In this document: one piece after another, positions 7,801-61,600 of the stretch
How the letters are laid out: every line of letters starts with the position of its first letter
How positions within the stretch are numbered: the first letter of the stretch is position 1
Source of the DNA: Pleodorina starrii
Lineage: Eukaryota > Chlorophyta > Chlorophyceae > Chlamydomonadales > Volvocaceae
Assembly: GCA_030267565.1 (NCBI GenBank)
Contig: BRXU01000020.1
Coordinates: 671,501-735,500 of the forward strand
Length of the DNA: 64,000 nt
Reading direction: 5' to 3'
Notes under the pieces: generated by a model
Databases searched by the model: none
Seen by the model: the letters and a program-made list of their open reading frames with translations, nothing else
What the model was told of the DNA's origin: nothing
Program-made: the position numbers and the translations under genes

Positions 7801-10800
7801 CAGCTGGCTGGGGAGGGTGAGCGCGTCATGGCGTTCGGAAATGTGGAGGTGGTGCCGGACAAGGTGTGATCAAGCCTTTTTATGAGGAGAGGGATTTGGG
7901 GGGGGGGAGATGGGGGGGGGGGTAAGCAACCGACACGCCTTCCCTCTTTGAAGGTTGAGAATAGGTGAAGGATGTTTCATCCCACGAACCTCTAATCATT
8001 CGCTTTACCCGATAAAACTGATCAAGCTCCAGCTATCCTGGGAGAAAGGTGGCGGGAGGAGGTGTTTGAAAAGGGGGACGTGAGAAGCGGGTGGGTTCCA
8101 TCTCCGTTCCTTCGCTGCTGCGGAATACCGGTATCTGTCTACTTACCCTCGCCTCCCCCCTCTTCCCCCCTTTCCCCCCTCTTCCCCCCTTTCCCCCCTT
8201 TCCCCCCTCTTCCCCCCTTTCCCTCCTCTTCCCCCCTTATCCTCCTCCAGGGCGAGGAGAAGCAGAACGTGTCGGAGATGGTGGTGGCTCGCGGTTTCGC
8301 CACCGTCATCAAGCACCGCACCGACGAGGAGCGCAGCTGCGTGTACGAGAGGTACGGCTTGGTGTACGGCCGTACTACGTTCCATACGGCACACGCTCTC
8401 CCTCTCCCCACCTCTCCCTGCCTGCGAGACGGCCTTCTTCTGTTACTTTACCGTTCACGGGCTCCGGCCTGTACGTGGATAGCCCCCTTTCTCCCCTTTC
8501 TACCTCCAGCGTTCTTGGTTGCTGCAACCCTTCCCTTCCTACTTTTTGCGCATTATTGCGCTCTGAAAGCACCGTTCTTCCCCCTCCCACCCTTCCACCG
8601 CCACCACCACCTCACACACACACACACACTCTCCGCCCCATCCCACTCCGCCCCATCCCTCTCCGCCCCCATCCCACTCCGCCCCATCCCACTCCGCCCC
8701 ATCCCACTCCGCCCCATCCCACTCCGCCCCATCCCACTCCGCCCCATCCCACTCCGCCCCATCCCACTCCTTCCCCTCAGGCTGGTCGCCTGCGAGGAGC
8801 TCGCCCGCTCCTCCAAGCGCGGCGTCCACAGCGCCAAGGAGCCCCCCGCCAACCGGGTCAACGACGTCAGCCAGCCGGGATCGGCGACTCGGGCCAAGCA
8901 GTACCTGCCCTTCTTCCAGCGCGCGGGTGGGTGCTGTGCGGCTGGGTGGGACCGGGCTGGGCTACTGAGTGGGGCTGGGTATGGGTTAAAAACCTACCTC
9001 CACCGTTGAAAACCTACCTTCCGGGTCCGTTCTCGCTGACGCCCCGTCTCCGTCTCTCCGCTGCGGTATCTTCTAAACTTCCTACCCCTAAACCCCTCCT
9101 CCCCTCCCTTCCTCCTGTCTCCTCCCAGGCAAGATGACGGGTGTGGTGGAGTACGTGCTGAGCGGCCACCGCCTCCGGGTGCACATCCCCAAGGAGGGAG
9201 TCACAATCGTGTTTGCGCCCTCGGGCATCAAGACGCCATCGCGGCCGCAGCCGGCGGGCAACGGCAAGCCAGCCGTGCAGGTAAGGAATAAGGAGCGGGA
9301 CGGAGGGCGGTGCAGGGGAAAGGGGGCTGCGAGGCTGCGGGGATACGAGCGCGGGCGGGTGCGGGGCAGCCGGCGGGCAACGGCAAGCCAGCCGTGCAGG
9401 TAATGAAGGAGCGGGTACAGGGGTGTAGGGTTGGGTTGGGTTAGCCAGGAGCAGGGGGAGGGGGGCGCAGCACGGAGGGAGGGGGCCGCGTGAGGGCGCT
9501 GCTGCATTGTGGGCTGATTACAATTATGATCGAATCCCGGAACTACCAGGAAAGGGTGGGTCACACACACATACACACACACGCCCTCCTCGCCCCAACT
9601 GCCTCTTCGAGACGCCTCCTTACACCCTTAAGGACGACCATTGTACTGAGCGCCCTACTCCACTCGCCATACTCCAACAAACAAACCTAGATGTCCACAC
9701 TCAATACATACACACTCACAGATACACACTCACACATACACACTCAACACATACACACACGCGCGCTCGCACGCACACGCACGCACGCAGGGCGAGCCTT
9801 TCGCGGAGGAGGCGCTCGCCTACACGCGCGAGGCGATGATGCAGCGCGACGTGGAGGTGGTGGTGGAGACCATGGACCGCGGCGGTACCTTTCTGGGCAC
9901 CGTGGTACTGGTGCCGCAGCCGCAGGCGGGAGGCGCTGCCGCCTCTGCCGCTTCTGCGCGGCCGTTCAACCTGGCGCTGGCGCTGCTCAGTAAGGGTCTG
10001 GCCCGGCTGCAGCCCAATGTGGACCCCTCCCGGCTGCCGGAGGGCTCCGAGATGGTCCGTCTGCAGCAGGCGGCCAAGGAGCAGCGGCTCAAGGCAAGGG
10101 AGGGAGGGGGACGAAAGAGGGGCATGTACTGCTGCATGTACGGCATGTACTGCATGTACGGCTTGTACAGCATGTACTGCCTGGGGCGGAAGGCTTAAAA
10201 GAGATGGCAGGTTGCTGGTGTGGAGGCGTTTCCTGGGCAGGTGGTTTCTGGTTCCTGGTATATCTCCACATTTCATGCAATAAGCTGAAGTTCCCGGGGT
10301 CGGGCGCCTCGGGCCCTCGGCTCTCCCCACGTCCCGCAGTGACTCATTGTTTTATAATTATAAAGGAGCATATCCCTCCCTGACCCCCCACCCCACCCAC
10401 CCTATCCGCCCAGATCTGGGAGAACTGGACCCCGGACATGGACCGGGAGGAGGGCTACGGCGACGAGGAGGGCGGTGACGCCGGCGCCGCCGGGGGGCCC
10501 TCCACCTCTGCCGCCAACGGAGCCAGCAACGGACACTCAGCGGCCGGCAGCGGCGGCGCCGCCGCGGGAAGCTTCGCCGCGGCCGCCAGCGGCGCCGCCT
10601 CCTCGTCGTCGTCTGCGGCGGCGGCGGCGCGGCCCGCCGGCGGCGGCGGCGGTCGGAGCCAGGAGGTGTTGTCGGTGACGGTGACGGAGGTGGTGGACGC
10701 GAACGAGTTCTTCGTGCAGGTACGGATGTACGGCATGGCGTGTGGCGGTTGGGTGTGGTACGGCGGTACAGGGAGAGGTGTGACGGGTTTGTGCTTGTGG

Positions 10801-45030: not shown

Positions 45031-48000
45031 ATGGCCCAGCAGTTAGCTCTGGACGACCGCGTGCTGCGGTCGATGGGAGTAGGGAAATGTTTCAAGGTAA
45101 ACATGAGCTCTCACTTGTGCAAGCTTACGCGTTTGCATGGAGCTGACAAAGCGCCGCCCGGTTCCTGCTTGTTGACCGGTTACCTGATGATATACAAGGA
45201 TGGACACCAAAGGATCAATTCCATGGACTTCTGCCGGACTGAGGACCTTCTGGTGACGGGCAGCGACGACGACTCGATTCGCGTGTACGATGTGGCCAGG
45301 GGCGTGGCCGTTGACACGCTCCACAGCCGCAAGTACGGGGTCCAAAACGTGTGCTTCACACATGACCCGACGTGCATAGTCTACGCCTCGCGAAAGGTGC
45401 CGAGCCGCTGCGCATACGCGCGGCGTTTAGGGGGGGGGGTCGCGGGGCCCGGATGGAGGGGTTTCGCCGGAGAGGGAGGGAACGAAGACGATAACGTAGC
45501 GGGAGAGGGGGGTAATTAAAACGGCCCGGGACGAGGAGACGCAACGCAGTTACCTGGAATATGGGGGGGCGCACATGGGGATGGGGATGGGAGGCTGCAA
45601 CGGCTCCAGTTATGCTGTCCAGCGCCTTTCGCCGTCTGTCGGACGGCGGCGACTCCCGCAGGTGGTGTTGGGGGTGGGGGTGTTGGCATCAGAGCGGGTC
45701 ACTTGAAACGCACCAAGCCATGATGGGTATTGCTGTGTGTGTGTATGGGCTGTCGCCGGTGTATCCCTGCTACGCCCTTGCGTTCGCGGCCGGGCTCCTT
45801 GGGGACCGCTGACGTTCCCGCAGCACCCTTGCCCCCCACCCCCCCCCCGCCCGGGGCTTTAGCAGCGGTGGGACCGCGGCCCGGTGAAACGGAGGCGACG
45901 GTGGCGAGCGTATCCAGGATCCAGCAAATACCTAATTTACTTTCCACACAGATCGGTCACTTTGCCACTACCGCGACGTGCTGCGACACCGCCGGAGGGG
46001 CCCTACCTGCCAATCTTGTTGATAACGTTGCATGTTAGCAGGGGGTTGGGGCGCGCGCGGCGCCTGCCCCCCCCCCAAATACACGGACTGTCATACTCCG
46101 AACCCCCCCTACCAATTGTCCAACCCCCGCGTGTTCCCCCTCCCTTCCACGGGGCTTCTTGTTTCGTTTCTGCAAATTCACTCTTCGCCCTTCTCCCTCC
46201 AACACGCACACGCATACAACCAGTCCACGGGCCAGCTCAAGCCCACGGAGGCCCACGCGCTCCGCTACCACTCCCTCCACATGAACCAGTACCTGAGGTA
46301 CTTCATGGGGCACACGGCGCAGGTGGGCGGACCCGTGGGTCGGTGCCTGTGGGTGGGTGGGTAGCTTGATGGCTGTGTCGGGGTTTCCCGGAGTTTGGTG
46401 CACGCTCCGGGATGGGTGGTTGGGTGGGGGAGGACCTGGCTGGACTGAGGGTGGGTGGGTCGGTGGCTTGGTGACTGGAGGGAGGGAGGGAGGGAGACGG
46501 CCGCCAGTTGTCGCCGTCACCATCCCCTTGTCCTTCGCCGCCCTGGCCCGTCCCCCTGCCCCTCAGGTCAACTCGTTGTGCTTCTCCCCCAAGAACGACA
46601 CCTTCGTTTCAGCAGCGCAGGTACGCCGGTGTGTCTGTCTGTCTGTCTGTTTGTGCGCTCAGCGCGTACCGGTATCGGCGGGTGCGTGTGATTGCGTATT
46701 TGCATTCGCCTCCGGAACTCGGTCAACCTCAAGCCAGCGAGCTGCGCGGTGTTCCTACAAGGATGTGCGCGCGTGTGTACCCTGCGTGTGCGTGCGCGTG
46801 TCTCCCCCCCCCCCGAGATGGGCTCGTGCCGGTGCGGTACGGTACGGTACTCCGCCCTGACCACACCGCCGTCTTGGGGCTCCATATGGCCTTGGTGCTC
46901 CGTACCGTATCTCGAGGCTCCATTACGGTACTCTTTTTTCAAGGAAGAAGAGACCCGTGCCTAAGAAGTCGGCGTCCCCGCTCCCTGCCCCCCTCTGCCC
47001 CGCACCGCCTCCCGCAGGACAAGTCGGTTCGGCTGTGGGACGTGCGCACCAACATCTGCCAGGGCTGCTTGCAGGTTGGATGGTGGGGCGGGGCGGGGCG
47101 GGATTGGGGAGAGGTGCAACATATGTACCCAGGAGCGTGTGCTGTGCTCGCGGGCGAGCATGGATTGTGGGCAAGCTTAAAATGTCGATATGATGTTTAA
47201 ATTGAATTAGTATATCATCTCCGCCCTTCGAAGAGATCAGTTGGGATCTCCCGCACAGGTTCGAATCCTGTCGACTGCGATTCTACCCGGCCTTGGCAGT
47301 CGTGCCCGAGTGGTTAAGGGGACTGACTAGAATCAAGGGAGGACTCTTTTGTTTGTTATTAGGCGCTTTTCCGTGGCTTATCACATCCCCCCCTCCCCCG
47401 CGTTTCCTACGGCTCCTTGCAAATTATTCTCAACCCTCCGCCCTTCCCTCCCGGCGTCTGTTCAGGTTCCCGGCAACCCCACCGCCACCATCGACCAGCA
47501 AGGGCTGGTGTTCGCAGTGGCAACAGAGTCTGGCGTCATCAAACTGTACGACTTGAGATCGTACGATAAGGGGCCCTTTGACACGTTCATGGTACGTACA
47601 CGTACGACACGTACGACACGGGCAAGAAGATGGCGCTGTGGCGATCGGTACACGGCCCAAGGCTGAAGGGGGGAGGGTGGCGCGTGGGGGCGGAGTCGCT
47701 GCGGGTCATATTGATTTATACCGCACAGCCAAGCCTTCCATGTCGCATCTTTTATTGATAATGATATAGTGTAGTTTTGTGTTATTTTATCTGTTTTACC
47801 TACCGTATTTACTTTTGTGCTGCTGCATTTCCCCCGCCCTCTTTTCAGGTGGAGGAGGAGAAGGGCAACCCCACGGGCTTCGCCGACATCAAGTTCTCAA
47901 ACAACGGCAACCTGCTGATGGCGGTGGTGGAGGGCCGCATATACCTGATGGACGCGTACAAGGCGAGGGAGGGAGGGAGGGTGTGGGGGGGGGCGGGATT

Positions 48001-49141
48001 TCGACGAGGGGGGCGCGGGTTTCCCTTCCCCCACCCCCTTCCCCCACCTCCTGTTACGTCCCTATCTTTCAACCCCCCCTCCGCAGTGACTCATGTTTAT
48101 ATAAAGGAGCATATCACTCCCTGACTCCCTCCATCTGTCAGCCCATCAGATTGCCCTTTTGGACTTCCCCCCTCCCCTCCCCTCCCCTCCCCATGTGCAT
48201 GTCACCGTCGGTGTAGCGCATGACATTCCCTACCCCTCAACCCCGACCCCCTACTCCCTAACCCCCTAATCCCTAACCCCCTAATCCCTAACCCCCTAAT
48301 CCCTAACCGGTATTTTCTTTTTACTCCCTAACCCCCTAACCCCCTCCGCCTCCGCCTCCGACGCCTGACAGGGCACCGTGTTCAAGCGCTTCTCCAACGG
48401 TATCCCCGAAATGGGTTCCGCTGTGGAGGCGGCAATCACCGCCGACAACCAGTACCTGCTCAGCGGTAGGGGGGGTTGGGGTGAGGGGGAGGATGCGGTG
48501 CGGTGCGTTGCGGGCAGCGGTTGGGGATGGGGTGGGGGGCCGCGTGTGGTGTGGATGCGCCGGTGGTGAATGGAGTGTGTGGGGGTGGGAGGGAGGGTGA
48601 AGTTGCGTGCGTGTGTGCGTCCTTTGGGTGGGTGGGGGGGCCGAGACAGGGGAAGAGGAGGGGGAGGGGGTGCGCGCGCGTGTTTGCGTGTGTGCAGCTC
48701 ACCTCATCACCGCAGCTCACCTCATCGCACCGCACCGCACCAGGTCGCACCTCCGACCTCCGACCTCCGGCTCCTGTGCACTTCATCCTCTTCGCCTCTC
48801 AACCAACCTCCGCCCACCTTTCCACCCCACCTTTCCACCCCAGCCTTCCGCCCACACCTTCACCCCTCCCTTTCCCTTTCCCTTTCCCTCCTCCTCCCCC
48901 CACCGTTTACGGGCTCCGGCCTATACGTGGATAACCCCCGAGCGAAACGAAAGGCTGTGACGACCGGGCCATCCGCGTGTGGCACATCGACAGCGGTCGC
49001 GAGGTGGCGGTGTGGCAGGGCCACGCGCAGGTGCCCGCCTGTCTGCGGATGTCCAACCGGCGGGTGCTGCTGGCGTCGGCCTGCACGGCGCTGGTGCTGT
49101 GGATACCCAACCTCAAGATCCTGGAGCAGATGCCGCCGTAG
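45031..49141 (+). CDS. WDR82: WD-repeat protein WDR82/Swd2, nine exons
   Basis: Exons: 45031-45096, 45199-45396, 46224-46322, 46567-46620, 47018-47074, 47466-47591, 47849-47962, 48372-48465, 48954-49141; phases agree, 331 aa (animal WDR82 is 313). The protein is a seven-blade WD40 propeller. Marker segments are GSDDDSIRVYDVARG, RYFMGHTAQVNSLCFSPKND, DKSVRLWDVRTNICQG, VIKLYDLRSYDKGPFDTF and CDDRAIRVWHIDSG. In other eukaryotes WDR82/Swd2 is a subunit of the COMPASS/SET1 H3K4 methyltransferase and of a PNUTS-PP1 termination complex that reads the Pol II CTD; the nuclear role here is inferred from family. The intron after 47962 begins GCGAGG, a GC-AG intron, and that choice preserves the conserved DAYK/GTVF join. 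Intron 5 hosts a permuted tRNA gene. Exon 2 follows an in-frame readable intron, but the FK|DGHQRINS join fits the family. Confidence 0.92.
45511..45563 (+). repeat. Repeat family C, truncated copy, WDR82 intron 2
   Basis: It matches the first half of 7321-7426 (GTAATTAAAACGGCCCGGG, GCAACGCAGTTACCTGG) and stops at GGAATATGG. Confidence 0.75.
47236..47332 (+). tRNA. Circularly permuted tRNA-Ser(AGA) gene: 3' half 47236-47279, 16-nt linker, 5' half 47296-47332
   Basis: The 3' half lies upstream of the 5' half. Joined in mature order they give an 81-nt tRNA-Ser: acceptor GCAGTCG/CGACTGC (7 of 7 pairs), discriminator G, D stem CCC/GGG with loop GAGTGGTTAA, anticodon stem ACTGA/TCAGT with loop CTAGAAA (anticodon AGA, 47329-47331), long variable arm GGGA-TC-TCCC typical of Ser, and T arm ACAGG-TTCGAAT-CCTGT. 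The break falls exactly at positions 37/38, the canonical eukaryotic tRNA intron site. The outer flanks 47220-47228 and 47335-47343 can pair (8 of 9), and C32 can pair with G at -3 of the 3' splice point, leaving a 3-nt bulge as the tRNA endonuclease expects. A TTTT Pol III stop is at 47347-47350. The B box precedes the A box. It lies in WDR82 intron 5 on the same strand. Confidence 0.88.
47280..47295 (+). other. Linker between the halves of the permuted tRNA
   Basis: Sixteen bases, ATTCTACCCGGCCTTG, join the 3'-terminal discriminator base to the 5'-terminal base of the tRNA. In known permuted tRNAs this segment is removed by RNase P and tRNase Z after circularisation. No CCA is encoded. Confidence 0.8.
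48081..48130 (+). repeat. Repeat family D, WDR82 intron 7
   Basis: It reads CCGCAGTGACTCATGTTTAT, ATAAAGGAGCATATCACTCC, CTGACTCCC. This is the best-conserved copy. Confidence 0.8.
48235..48355 (+). repeat. CCCTAATCCCTAACCC-type tract, WDR82 intron 7
   Basis: Imperfect 14-bp units of AACCCCCTAATCCCT recur about five times. They resemble degenerate telomere-like sequence, but the CCCTAAAA unit itself is absent here. Confidence 0.65.
48901..48940 (+). repeat. Repeat family B, WDR82 intron 8
   Basis: It reads CACCGTTTACGGGCTCCGG then CCTATACGTGGATAACCCCC and ends 13 bp before the acceptor of exon 9. Confidence 0.8.
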
Positions 49142-51456
49142 GCAGGGACCAGGGCCATCCAGGGGGGCCTGCAGGGCGCCAGGGGGGCCTGCACAGCGCC
49201 ATCCAGGGGGGCAGGCGCCAGGGCCAGGGGGCCAGGCGCCAGGGTCACTTGTACTGTTGATGTTACTGATGCTGATGTTGCCGGTGGTGGGGGTGGGGGT
49301 GGGGGTGGCGGTGGTGGTGATATCTGGCTGGTGGTGGTGACGGCGAGGGTTGCATCTGGTGGTGGAGGCCGCGCCGGCGTAAAAGGCGCCGAAGCACCTT
49401 TGCCGGCTGTTGTGTGCGCTCTTTCGCTTTGCAGGCAGGCAACCCTGGCCAAGCAACCCTGCTCCCTTCCCAACCCTAACTTAGCCCCTGGCGTCCGTAA
49501 TGTAGATAGGTCGCTGTGTTGAGTAGCTAGGTGCTGTCGTTGGGGAGACGGTGCTGGGATGGCAAGTTTGATGCGAGGATGGAGTGGCATCAATGCATCA
49601 CTGAATAATACGACGCGTCATGTGCGTAATGTGTCAAGAGGCGTTGGGCCCGGCTTGGGGGGCGGGGGGTTGCCGCCCCCCATCCCCCCACACAACCCCT
49701 TCCCCCCGGGCACCCCGAATTGCAGTGTCCGTTCCAACCGTGTTTCAATGGAACTGACAGCGGTCCGGAATATGCAAGGTGCAGCCATTTACATTGCGCA
49801 CTAGGCGCACGTCCTGAGGCCCATGGCAGTGGTGCGTCAGATCGTTATACCCTATGATTGGAAAAGAAAGGGATGGCGTCATGGCGACCTCGGTCTCTAA
49901 ACGTTCATTGCATCCGATGACGGTAACCCTCTCAGGGAAGTAAGGGGGCGGAGGGGTACCGACCTACCGAGCCCTGCTCAGCACGAAATAACTCATGTGT
50001 GTTACATCTTACCAATGTTCAATCTTGCAAAGAGCCTCAGCACCGTTCCGCAGTTACACATAAGTTAAGGGTCCTGTCGTCTGTGTACGTACTTGCGCGG
50101 GAGACCCAAATGGGGGCAACAGCTCTCCAGCAGCTCTTGACAGCAGCACCTCGCTCCCGACAGCCATGACTTGGATCCGTCAGTATCCGTCCCTGGTGGA
50201 ACCCGTACGGTCCGGCCTTCCCAACTCCAACCCCGCCGCATGCCGTCATCAGGTTTACATGAGAAGTTCAAAGCCGTCGCGACTTATGACGTAATGGTCG
50301 TGTGTCGCCAATGGACATGGAAATGACCGTACATTGAGCAGGCTGAGGTGCAAAGAAGCACAGCGGAATTTATTTGCGAGGGTCGCGACGTGCACATGCC
50401 GACGATAGTGCAAGGCTTCGCTACAGGTTCTCGCGTAGAGACACTTGCCAGCTTTAAAATTAGTTCGGGGCATGTGTATATACGTCCTCTAGCGTTGGGC
50501 GGAGAACCCGCATAAGACGGCATCGTGTGTGCATTCGAGGCGGCTTGGCGTCCAACAACCAGTTTGCCCCTCATAGTTTGTCCCTTGCCATCTATGTAAA
50601 TCTATGTATTAGTAATATGCGTCAAAGCGGTTGGACCGGCTAGCAGAACTGTGGTGTGGTCACCTGTGGTCACGGGAACAAATGTCCGCTCTGCAAATAT
50701 GTTTGGATGTCGAGACGACGAGACGCCGTCATGTAAAGATTTATATATAAATTAAACGGTACAATATGGAATGAACAGAAGTTCTGGATGCGTTGGAGCG
50801 AGTGCGGCCTCGGACCATGGGCTCCATGTTAACATCTTTCATACTGATACATGCACTATTGTCTATGAAGGTTGTTGTAAAGTGCTACGAGTGTTAAGGG
50901 CTATTAACCTTGCTTTACAGCGTATCGATTCATCAAGGTTGGTCGTCACTCAGCCGGGCAGGCAGGCAGCCAGCCAACCAGGCAGCCACGGACAGGGCCT
51001 ACGCCCTAAAACCACAGGCATTCAAATTCCACATTAGATCCACTGCTTAGGACCTGGCCAGGTCGTTTGGATGTGTCAAATCGTTATGCGTTCAGACGTG
51101 CAGTAGTGTCGCCCTACATTACGGCCGGTTCCCCTTGTAAACATCGAATCCTAACAAGGCAGGGCTTCGCTTTTGGCACCCCTTCGCGGGTGCCCCTTGG
51201 GTAGGATGAACAGTCGGTCTAGCCTGTAAGGCTAGCAACCGGTGTGAAAACCGGTTCCCCTTGAAAACATCGAATCCTAACAAGACAGCCAGCTAGCCAG
51301 CCAACCCCCGCCCCTGTCGGCTCGAAAGCCTAACTGGGCAATCCAGTCCATCCAGACGCGGTCCCCGGCCACCCAGCGCGCACAGACAAGCGCACGCCCA
51401 TGCGTGGCCAAGTGTGTTTGTGTCATATATCTAACAATATCCCTAGTGTACATCGA
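49142..51456. other. WDR82 3' flank and intergenic region
   Basis: A GGGGGCC/CAGGCGCCA repeat lies at 49160-49245 and a GGTGGGGGT run at 49283-49318. From 49800 to 51100 GC content falls. No exon, domain or RNA gene is recognised before the repeats at 51120. Confidence 0.4.
51121..51300 (+). repeat. Cluster of palindromic, organelle-like repeats
   Basis: CCGGTTCCCCTTG followed by AAACATCGAATCCTAACAAG occurs twice (about 51125 and 51253). Between the copies are strong hairpins: GGCACCC-CTTCG-CGGGTGCC (51174-51194), CTAGCC-TGTAA-GGCTAG (about 51220-51236) and AACCGGT-GTGAAA-ACCGGTT (about 51237-51257). The style matches the short dispersed palindromes of volvocine plastid and mitochondrial genomes, so an organelle-to-nucleus transfer is possible. 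Confidence 0.6.
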
Positions 51457-51529
51457 TTCGCTATAGTCTAGGCGGTCAGGATACGAGATTCTCACTCTCG
51501 AGACCCGGGTTCGAGTCCCGGTAGCGAAA
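51457..51529 (+). tRNA. tRNA-Glu(CTC)
   Basis: A 73-nt cloverleaf: acceptor TTCGCTA/TAGCGAA, anticodon stem CGAGA/TCTCG with loop TTCTCAC (anticodon CTC at 51491-51493), T arm CCGGG-TTCGAGT-CCCGG and discriminator A. There is no intron. The nearest TTTT downstream is at 51577-51580, rather far for a Pol III stop. Confidence 0.95.
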
Positions 51530-58600: not shown

Positions 58601-61600
58601 TTGAACTCGGCTATGCGGACCTGATTGTACAGGGCAGGGAGAGGGAGAGGGAGAGAGAGGAAAGGAGGGTGTAAGGGTGCCGTGCGAAAGCGGTACAATT
58701 TGGTTGGGGGCACCGTACGTGCCACGTACCGTCGTGCAGCCCCATCACCGCACCCCCAATGCCCCTCCCTCCCTCCTCTCCCCCAACCCCCGCCCCAATC
58801 TCAACATCCCCCCCACACCCACATACACACACAATCCCCCGCCCTCTGCCCCTCCGCCCCCCGCCCCCGGCCCCCACCTCCCCTCCTGCCCCACCTCAAT
58901 CACCGCCTCCTCCGTGGTCAGTCCCAGCGGACAGAACGCCAGCCGCACCTCCACACATCCGTGTCCCGGCACCACCCCCCGGACCGGCTCCACTTTGAAA
59001 CACCGGTTGGGGCGGGTCTCAACGATCTCAAACTCAAAGTCGACCGGGACCTGTGGACGGGGGTGGGGGGTCAGGGGAAGGGAGTGGGGGGAGGAATGGG
59101 GCGGGGGGTGGGGAGAGAATGGGGCGGAACAGGGGGGGAAGGGGGGCGTTGAGGAGGTCGTGGGGAGGGGGGTCGCGGGGAGAGGGATGGGCCGGGGGCC
59201 CTGTTGATGTGTTTCTGGAGGGTCGCCGTTCGCCAACGTCGCCACCCATTCCCTCCGCTGCGCCAATACCCGTCCCCAGAACCCGTCCACATGACCACTC
59301 CCCATTACCCCTCCCCATTCCCGTTCGCCTATCAGCGTTCCTCCGCTGCAGCAGCATCTTTCGCACCCCCCCCACAACCACACCCAGCCTCTCTCCCCCT
59401 CCCTCCCTCCCCCTCCCCCCCACCCTCCCTCCCTCCCTGCCCCCCCACATCTCTCACCTTGCACTCGAGCGTGTGTGTCCGCACCATCTCCTGCCCCACC
59501 GCCCCCCGGCCAAAGTCCACTCGGGTGGGGAAGAGCGTCTCGTTGGCCACCGGGTAGGCGTGGATGGGGATCAGCAGGTTCTCGTCCTGAGGGTGTGTGT
59601 GTGTTTGGGAGGGGGGGATGTTATCCACGTATAGGCCGGAGCCGGGCGTGTGTGGGGGAGGACGCGGGGGAGGAGGAGGAGGAGAGTTGATGTGCGTGAA
59701 GGGACGTGATGAGGAAGAGACGCAGCGGTGGATGGAGAGAACGGGGCAATACCCGCACACAGTCCCCACCTCGCTGTGTACCCGCACACAGTCCCCACCT
59801 CGCAGTCCCTTCCCCCTCCTCCGCAGTCCCCACCTCACTGTGCACCCGCACACAGTCGTAGTAGTAGCGGTGGTGCGAGGGACAGAACTCCACTGTCACC
59901 TCCTCGCTCATGCCGGGGGCCAACAGACCCTTCTTGTTGGAGCATGTGGCCTGGAGGGGGAGGAGGGGGAGGAGGAGGGGGAGGAGGAGGGAGGGAGGGG
60001 AGGGGGGGTGCACGGGCGGGTGGGTCGTGATTTGTGAGCCGGCGTGATGGGGTAAGGGAGGGGCACGGGAGGGGTAAGTCGGGGGTTGGGAGGGGAATAT
60101 CCACGTATAGGCCGGAGCCCGTGAACGGTAACGTAACGTAACAGAAGAATTCCGTCGCATCTGCAAAAGAACAGCGAGGTAAGCTGGCAAAACAGCAGGG
60201 GACGTGATATACAAACCGAGAGGGTGTAGCAAGTACGAGCGGAGCCGCCGCGGTGTCGAGGCGCGATGACGACGAGCTGAGGCTGGTAAAGAAGTGTAGG
60301 AAAGTCGCGGAAGTGGCTGAGCGACGTGCTGTGAAGCGGTCCGAGAAAGTGCGGCTGGGATGCAAGGAACGTCCCAGCCCCCGAAGCCCGCGGGAACCCA
60401 ACTCACCTACAGCAGGAAAAGAGGGCACAGAGCAAGCAAAGGGTACGTGAAGCAACGGCAAGAACAGCGGGGAGGGGAGGGTTTGGCCAGGGACCCGGGA
60501 GAGGCGTCTGCAGAGTGCGCGGGTCTGCAGAGGGATGGACGTGGACGGACGCACAGACGGTCTGCGCCCCTGTGCTGGCAGATGGGGGCGTCGAGGGAGG
60601 GAGGGAGGGAGGGAGCAGCCGAGCGCCTCCTTCTACCCGCGCCTCTCCCTCTCCCCGCCCCTCTCCCTCTCCCCGCGCCTCTCCCTCTCCCCGCGCCTCC
60701 CCCTCTCCCTGCTGGCTGCCTCTCCCTCGCTGCAACTGTTAGCCTGGCAGCGGCTGCTGCTGCTGCTGCTGACAAAGAGAGCCACTTCTCCGCCGTTGTC
60801 TGTCTACATACACATTGGCCCCCCGCCCGGTCCCCGCCTCTCCGACCCCGCCCCGCCCTTTCCGCCTTTGCCAACCTCTGCGGCATGTGGCCGGCGCATG
60901 CCGCCGCCGCCCTGCCCTTCCATCTTTCGACAGCCCTCTGCAGCCCACGGCGCACTTCGGCCCTCGGGCACAGCCAGTAGGTCAGCCAGGCCAGGCCAGG
61001 TCAGGTCAGGAGAGATCTCAGGCCGGGTCAGGGCTGAGGGTGGCCACCCGACCTGTTCCCTCCCCTCCCCTCCCCTCCTCTCCCCTTTTGTTTCTTTCTT
61101 GCAAATTCACTCTTCAAACTCCCCTCCTCTCCCCCTTCGAGCTCCCGCTCCCGTCTCCTTGGCCTCCTCCTCGGCCTCCTCCTCCTCAGGTCCCGCACCC
61201 CATCCCCACCACCACCACCACCACCAGCCACCACTGCCCGGCGTTCGTCCGGCGGCGCCAGCCACGTCCGCAGCGTCCGGGCGGGAGAGCCATGGGGGGG
61301 TGGGGTGGGGGGAGAGCGCGTGGGTGCCTCCTTTCCCCCCCCCGCGGTCCGCAGTGTCTCGTGTTATGTAATGGAGCATATCAGTCCCTAAACCCCCTCG
61401 CTGTGCTTTCGTTGCACCCCTGCCCGCCTCCGCCCTTCCCCCGCCAGGTGGCCCGGTGGACCCCAGGAGGGCAGAGCGGCGCGGTGGGCCCTACGTCCTG
61501 GGGCCGGCACATGGCCCAGGATCCTGAGCTCCCCTCCCCACCGGGGTTCTGGCTTCTGGGTCGCCTACGTCTCCCTCCGCTGCGGTACCGGCATCTCCTC

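Follow-up and report, generated by a model that had tools for sequence, protein, structure and literature searches.

A tRNA-Ser(AGA) gene with swapped halves in an intron of WDR82

The window, by which we mean the whole 64-kb stretch of Pleodorina starrii DNA analyzed here, carries at 47236-47332 on the forward strand a complete tRNA-Ser(AGA) gene whose halves are swapped (Table 1). The 3' half, reading ATCAGT...CTGCG from A38 to G73, comes first and is separated by a 16-nt linker, ATTCTACCCGGCCTTG (beginning ATTCTACCCG), from the 5' half, which reads GCAGTCG...CTAGAA from G1 to A37. After re-ordering, every stem closes, with 7/7 pairs in the acceptor, 3/3 in the D, 5/5 in the anticodon, 3/3 in the variable and 5/5 in the T stem, and ARAGORN calls the result tRNA-Ser(aga). 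With A37 ending the 5' half and A38 opening the 3' half, the junction is 37/38. In its half order, cloverleaf, 37/38 junction, 16-nt linker and lack of an encoded CCA, the window copy shows the features of a type II permuted tRNA gene. A sequence-only reading of this stretch had proposed just such a gene, and its account holds up well: the halves lie to the base where it had put them, the pair counts are complete for the stems that it had said would close on swapping (including the seven-pair acceptor and the variable arm), the AGA anticodon is seen both in the sequence and in the ARAGORN call after re-ordering, and the 37/38 breakpoint, the pair between C32 and G(-3) and the TTTT terminator that it had reported are all found. 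Additionally, ATTCTA, within ATTCTACCCG, is complementary to TAGAAT, which runs from U33 to the first trailer base.

Table 1. Features of the permuted tRNA-Ser(AGA) gene and its host intron (positions in the window)
Feature	Position	Strand	Basis
WDR82 exons flanking the tRNA-bearing intron	47018-47074 and 47466-47591	+	reading by eye
WDR82 (Swd2-like) intron holding the tRNA gene, phase 0	47075..47465	+	gt..ag ends, exons read by eye, protein match
AT-rich stretch (TTTAAA 47196-47201, TATAT 47211-47215), candidate Pol III upstream promoter	47196..47215	+	AT content
Leader arm, predicted to form 8 pairs and one G x A mismatch with the trailer arm at the splice junction	47220..47228	+	sequence
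G(-3), candidate partner of C32 (47327) in the anticodon-intron pair	47233	+	sequence
3' half of tRNA-Ser(AGA), A38 to discriminator G73, variable arm and T arm (B box)	47236..47279	+	sequence
Linker, 16 nt, no CCA encoded	47280..47295	+	sequence
5' half of tRNA-Ser(AGA), G1 to A37, D arm (A box) and anticodon AGA	47296..47332	+	sequence, ARAGORN after re-ordering
Trailer arm, predicted pairing with 47220-47228	47335..47343	+	sequence
T4, candidate Pol III terminator	47347..47350	+	sequence

The gene lies on the same strand as the mRNA of WDR82. The protein spliced from the exons that we read shares 98% identity with PLESTB_001271200 of Pleodorina starrii, lower-ranked protein matches carry the names WD repeat-containing protein 82 or SWD2, and a search of the PDB with WDR82 returned many WD40 proteins; the placement in a WDR82 intron of a volvocine host, also put forward earlier, is backed by the exon reading and the protein match. 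Among the serine codons in the WDR82 exons (n = 20), six are TCC and one is TCT. The leader arm CTCCGCCCTTC (47219-47229) recurs exactly at 47436-47446, in the pyrimidine tract before the 3' splice site of the intron, and this second occurrence could compete for the trailer arm. Elsewhere, the peptide FTGSGLYVD recurs in unrelated frames of the window, at 8070-9137 (+), 48570-49340 (+) and 59835-60632 (-), as well as at L003:2587-2898 (-), which points to an interspersed repeat.

Run on the 64-kb window as it stands, ARAGORN and Rfam gave no match at the permuted gene, the sole tRNA found being a normal tRNA-Glu(CTC) gene at 51457-51529, 4 kb downstream; Rfam also gave no match on six other loci of the family described below. 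ARAGORN recovered a tRNA in 0/56 unaltered family loci and a tRNA-Ser (aga or cga) in 10/10 of the distinct re-ordered sequences that represent these 56 loci, a set drawn up with a stricter pattern and from less DNA than the count of 81 halves given below. With both programs blank at the window gene and Rfam blank at the six family loci, it follows that standard tRNA annotation can miss a whole isoacceptor. The rest of the 64-kb window holds neither a second 3'-half core nor a fitting 5' half.

Dispersed and tandem copies in two architectures

Beyond what the sequence-only reading could show, the window copy has relatives: its family amounts to at least 80 permuted tRNA-Ser copies, 59 with an AGA and 21 with a CGA anticodon. 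Counting was restricted to the stretches that hold the family, with C28:1627701-1634237 left out, and gave 81 5' halves: four dispersed copies (the window copy on C20, C26, C2:7582171 and C2:7958519), 59 in an array on C28 and 18 in another on C31. A 3' half stands directly upstream of 80/81 of these, and within 100 nt downstream of 0/81. The 60 AGA 5' halves comprise 58 permuted ones with A37, one permuted one with T37 and one that is truncated, with none in normal order, while the CGA 5' halves in the same stretches are permuted in 21/21 cases. A single suspect 5' half, C31:46913, is a truncated unit at the edge of its array; the 3' half 143 nt downstream of it is that of the next unit.

The C28 array (C28:1596010-1639624, less the part left out) is built of tandem 575/567-bp units with one permuted tRNA-Ser each. 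The anticodon is AGA in some units and CGA in others, and there is further variation at acceptor base 4, at T-stem base 61 and in the leader. Several units have acceptor-stem changes, and the one at C28:1606071, which carries base changes, is still counted as permuted under the corrected pattern. Truncated halves mark one edge of each array, a 3' half at the end of the C28 array and a 5' half at the start of the C31 array. All stems also close after re-ordering in C26, C2:7582171 and one array unit, while C2:7958519 has one mismatch in the anticodon stem. Altogether, 28 copies encode the exact tRNA of the window: C20, C26, C2:7582171 and 25/59 C28 units, with 0/17 C31 units doing so. In 52/53 C28 units the spacer has a second GATTCTACCCGAT that runs straight into GTGCCCGAG, a piece of the D arm, as if a shorter permuted remnant lay there. 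An identical GC-rich insert (TTTTTGGGCGGGGCCCCAGCGCGAAGCGCC...) immediately follows the T-run in two C31 units, near C31:42063 and C31:44962. Pfam, applied to ten of the 65 reading frames listed around three other copies, recognized no family, and an exact scan of viral and prokaryote contigs with a 22-nt piece returned 0 matches.

The copies fall into two architectures. Type A (window copy, C26 and C2:7958519) combines a 16-nt linker, ATTCTACCCGnnnTTG, with a leader of the form CATCTCC...AAGAG, the linkers of C26 and C2:7958519 differing from that of the window copy. In type B, which comprises C2:7582171 and the arrays, the linker is 7 nt long and the leader is GCGGATTCTACCCGAT, or in many units GCGGATTTTACCCGAT. 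The element ATTCTACCCG (47280-47289 in the window) lies in the linker of type A but in the leader of type B; because the TGCG before it is common to both types, this exchange suggests a jump at a short repeat.

Flanking signals and predicted folds

Between -80 and -21 of the 3' half, the AT content is 0.68 in the window copy, 0.60 in C26 and 0.73 in C2:7582171, these loci overall having 0.38-0.42 (0.39 for the 3.1-kb window locus), and all three copies have both the upstream AT-rich or TATA-like element and a downstream T-stretch. In the same interval C2:7958519 has 0.50 and one array unit 0.38, both without a TATA-like element. Six normal-order Ser genes have 0.52-0.70 at -60 to -1, an interval slightly different from that used for the permuted copies, and the upstream AT content of two normal-order tRNA arrays is 0.45-0.48; as these normal-order arrays are likewise not AT-rich, a missing AT stretch alone is no mark of a dead array. 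A T4 within 22 nt past the 5' half is present in 4/4 dispersed copies, 47/59 C28 units and 10/17 C31 units (57/76 array units), and absent in 12/59 and 7/17 units of the two arrays, respectively. The window tRNA might be cut either from the WDR82 intron or from a Pol III transcript of its own, and the AT stretch and T4 around it speak somewhat for the latter.

The earlier reading had the flanks of the gene pair with each other, and here its coordinates stand, with the amendment that the helix contains an internal G x A mismatch that had gone unmentioned. When pairing was left unlimited, the fraction of random local 20-mer pairs at least as stable as the actual flanks was 0.06-0.33, which is ordinary in 5/5 loci (0.22 in the window copy), and the C26 control of this test has a numerical outlier in its mean. 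With the register limited, by limits chosen post hoc, p_local was 0.045 for the window copy, 0.033 for C26, 0.011 for C2:7958519, 0.074 for C2:7582171 and 0.039 for an array unit; these five values are left uncombined because the limits were set after the pairs had been seen and the loci are related. The best helix between leader and trailer, a candidate BHB/hBH-like motif at the junction, has a different register at each locus, and the pairing of the flanks exceeds chance by no more than a modest margin.

The minimum-energy fold of the linear transcript contains the full cloverleaf in 0/5 copies tested, the window copy reaching -45.1 kcal/mol as against -42.9 kcal/mol with the cloverleaf imposed. 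The deficit of the cloverleaf in the linear precursor is 1.6-2.8 kcal/mol in four copies and 6.2 kcal/mol in C2:7958519, and the linear window transcript has no extra stability over shuffles (z = -0.41). For the circle, the predicted minimum-energy fold is the cloverleaf in 3/5 cases (the window copy, C2:7582171 and the array unit), the best folds of C26 and C2:7958519 being other structures.

Conservation of the mature part and sources of tRNA-Ser(AGA)

Over the 81 nt of the mature part, the window copy, C26 and C2:7582171 show 0/81 differences, and C2:7958519 differs at 1/81. The linker, leader and trailer of the first three copies, by contrast, differ at 15/56 (C20-C26), 31/55 (C2:7582171-C26) and 33/56 (C2:7582171-C20) alignment columns (Fisher p = 4e-7 to 6e-17 for the mature part versus these surroundings), and past approximately 25 nt the flanks show no better alignment than shuffled sequence. 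Alternatively or in addition, gene conversion between copies could account for the identical mature parts. In the C28 array (53 units), diversity is 0.011 and 0.024 in the tRNA halves and 0.012 in the spacer; since the halves vary as much as the spacer, this array as a whole is without sign of constraint.

A normal-order tRNA-Ser query against the genome assembly found no Ser(AGA) among the best 40 of 87 candidates, which were scored. The full-length or nearly full-length genes that it returned are four intronless Ser(CGA) genes together with a Ser(CGA) and a Ser(TGA) gene that by manual reading have an intron at 37/38 and that ARAGORN labels Gly(ccc) and Ser(tga), respectively. In a search with the 5'-half pattern, allowing up to two mismatches, all 59 exact AGA places among the 100 listed of 102 places belong to the permuted family; four more Ser-like halves in that list are normal-order CGA or TGA by manual reading (ARAGORN: two Ser(tga), one Phe, one uncalled). 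Querying the genome with a plant Ser(AGA) gave nothing beyond the four intronless Ser(CGA) genes already named, and where a normal-order gene fits the 5'-half pattern of the family (five cases), it is always Ser(CGA). By manual reading, the loci L013, L014 and L070-L073 are normal-order genes for Ser(CGA) or Ser(TGA), each interrupted at 37/38 by a short intron, L070 being a degenerate Ser(CGA) that ARAGORN leaves uncalled. On this sequence evidence the permuted copies are apparently the sole tRNA-Ser(AGA) genes in this assembly, where sole means the only ones found in 95 contigs with possible gaps.

Queries for Ser(GCT), iMet, Cys and Leu match across 37/38, and in their contexts the order is normal for Ser(GCT), iMet, Cys(GCA) and Leu(TAA); as these are normal where read, permutation is not general in the P. 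starrii genome, as far as tested. Long tandem arrays are formed in this genome by normal-order Ser(GCT) and initiator-tRNA genes as well (561 and ~1137 bp; C20:995960-1033841 and C36:434054-518727), and there are tRNA arrays on C2 and C3 with a spacing of ~1425 and 1780 bp.

Working genes, remnants or repeats

The best reading of these loci is that they are functional circularly permuted type II (37/38) tRNA genes, for which transcription, circularization and end-trimming are assumed by analogy with known cases. For the window copy, we hold with considerable confidence that the stretch 47236-47332 is a tRNA-Ser(AGA) gene with its 3' half first, the transcript of which is predicted to undergo cleavage and joining at 37/38; the mature tRNA would then likely arise when the resulting circle is opened in the acceptor stem. 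One might instead regard it as a dead rearranged copy, unexpressed, being either the remnant of a tandem tRNA pair without its outer halves or a stray copy from an array. There is indeed decay in the family, as the tRNA halves of the C28 units are unconstrained, with several acceptor-stem changes, and an anticodon-stem pair is broken in C2:7958519. However, the total lack of changes in the mature part of the window copy, C26 and C2:7582171, set against the 15/56 to 33/56 changed columns outside it, the presence of the AT-rich upstream stretch and the T4, and the finding of no other tRNA-Ser(AGA) source in the searches made leave a dead copy unlikely. A related proposal, that the locus is just two pseudogene halves, was rejected on the identical mature part in diverged surroundings. 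The sequence-only reading had itself named two truncated tandem pseudogenes unlike the real tRNA as the outcome that would speak against it; what we find is the same mature sequence kept at three sites with unrelated flanks, which tells against such a pair, and no normal-order Ser(AGA) gene elsewhere, a possibility also considered, in the genome searches made.

The high copy number, the tandem period of 575/567 bp and array halves that vary like the spacer might also bring to mind a tRNA-derived mobile or satellite element of the SINE kind, which spreads as a unit and has no role in translation. Against this, the direct repeats around 4/4 dispersed copies are 5 nt or shorter, no more than in shuffles, the dispersed copies have only the gene and its junction flanks in common, and normal-order tRNA genes are arrayed similarly in the same genome, so that we deem such an element very improbable; a mobile element in particular was rejected on the lack of target-site-like repeats and on the unalignable flanks of the four dispersed copies. 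Less probable still is that the array units are really normal-order genes with an intron of ~487 nt and a gap of 7 nt between neighbors, their permuted look arising from the phase in which the array is read. Phase is ambiguous in any head-to-tail array, and the truncated 3' half at the end of C28 and the truncated 5' half at the start of C31 would accord with such a reading. Yet the four dispersed copies are isolated, with no second half in the DNA read around them, and one of them, C2:7582171, has the architecture of the arrays; moreover, 57/76 array units have a T4 no more than 22 nt past the 5' half. The window copy, with no second half in its 64-kb window, would in any case be left untouched. 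Returning to permuted genes, we consider the window copy, C26 and C2:7582171 most likely to be working genes, while the tandem arrays may be mostly idle.

A predicted route through a circular RNA

For the window copy, RNA polymerase III would start near the upstream AT-rich stretch and stop at the T4, whereupon the leader and trailer would form a helix next to the anticodon stem. Cleavage after A37 and before A38 would fall to the tRNA-splicing endonuclease and the joining of A37 to A38 to a ligase, yielding a 97-nt circle still with its 16-nt linker. RNase P and RNase Z would remove this linker from the circle, CCA would be added thereafter, and A34 would be converted to inosine, with the resulting tRNA expected to read UCU, UCC and UCA. 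In the genome of P. starrii we found two matches to tRNA-splicing endonuclease and one to PRORP. In Cyanidioschyzon and green algae, according to a review, transcripts of permuted genes are cut at the junction and ligated to a circle, and RNase P and tRNase Z are the probable enzymes of its opening (PMC3978253). By analogy, the same cut, ligation and re-opening are likely in P. starrii.

In eukaryotes, decoding of UCU and UCC requires an anticodon with A34/I34. We think it probable that the normal gene for an essential isoacceptor, the tRNA-Ser(IGA) of UCU/UCC, has been lost in this colonial alga of the multicellular volvocine line and wholly replaced by permuted genes, which were later amplified to at least 80 copies (59 AGA, 21 CGA), both dispersed, with one in the WDR82 intron, and in tandem; the reading of every UCC codon would then depend on the processing of a circular RNA. 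The same review associates permuted tRNA genes with the small genomes of algae and nucleomorphs (PMC3978253). The presence of many permuted copies in a 136-Mb volvocine genome, where they are apparently the sole source of a needed tRNA, argues against genome reduction as the only driver. The line from Chlamydomonas to Volvox has good genetics, and volvocine algae offer a group in which the switch from normal to permuted order could be dated.

Comparison with known permuted tRNA genes

Within the same genome, the Ser(CGA) gene at C17:1668279 (L013) has halves very similar to those of the family, an anticodon stem ACTGA/TCAGT and, by manual reading, an intron at 37/38 (ARAGORN calls Gly with another intron site); unlike the AGA genes of the permuted family, it has normal order and a CGA anticodon. 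Among other green algae, Auxenochlorella belongs to the Trebouxiophyceae. Its strain UTEX 250-A has permuted nuclear tRNA genes and a tRNAscan-SE set that is incomplete (PMC12636532 / PMC12633428). For C. reinhardtii, the review relays the statement of Maruyama et al. 2010 that it is without permuted tRNA (PMC3978253).

Type II (37/38) permuted genes were reported from prasinophytes and the nucleomorph of Bigelowiella natans (Maruyama et al. 2010, as tabulated in Soma 2014, PMC3978253), and these include permuted Ser(AGA) genes in Micromonas pusilla, with an intervening sequence of 64 bp, and in the B. natans nucleomorph, with one of 5 bp. For permuted genes at large, the same source gives a range of 1-74 bp for the intervening sequence and no encoded CCA in eukaryotes. 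The P. starrii genes resemble those of the prasinophytes and B. natans in having the 3' half first, the break at 37/38, a short stretch between the halves (16 bp in the window copy, against 5-64 bp in those genes) and, in some, an AT-rich upstream region; they differ in the volvocine host, the many copies of one isoacceptor both dispersed and in arrays, the site in a protein-gene intron and the two architectures, as far as that table goes (PMC3978253). With Cyanidioschyzon merolae (Soma et al. 2007, 2013, per PMC3978253) they share the half order, the upstream TATA-like element and the T-stretch, and as that alga has 43 genes for 42 anticodons, permuted genes are the sole source of their tRNAs there too. 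However, C. merolae has four junction types, whereas only 37/38 is seen in P. starrii, and it has eleven permuted genes with at most two per tRNA, in contrast to the at least 80 copies of one family here (PMC3978253). In the literature searched, which lies mostly outside the subscription journals, we found no report of permuted tRNA genes in a volvocine alga. As far as the sources covered go, the working of the P. starrii genes is that of a known kind of permuted gene, and what is new is the volvocine host, the copy number together with the arrays, the occurrence of two architectures and the location of one copy in an intron.
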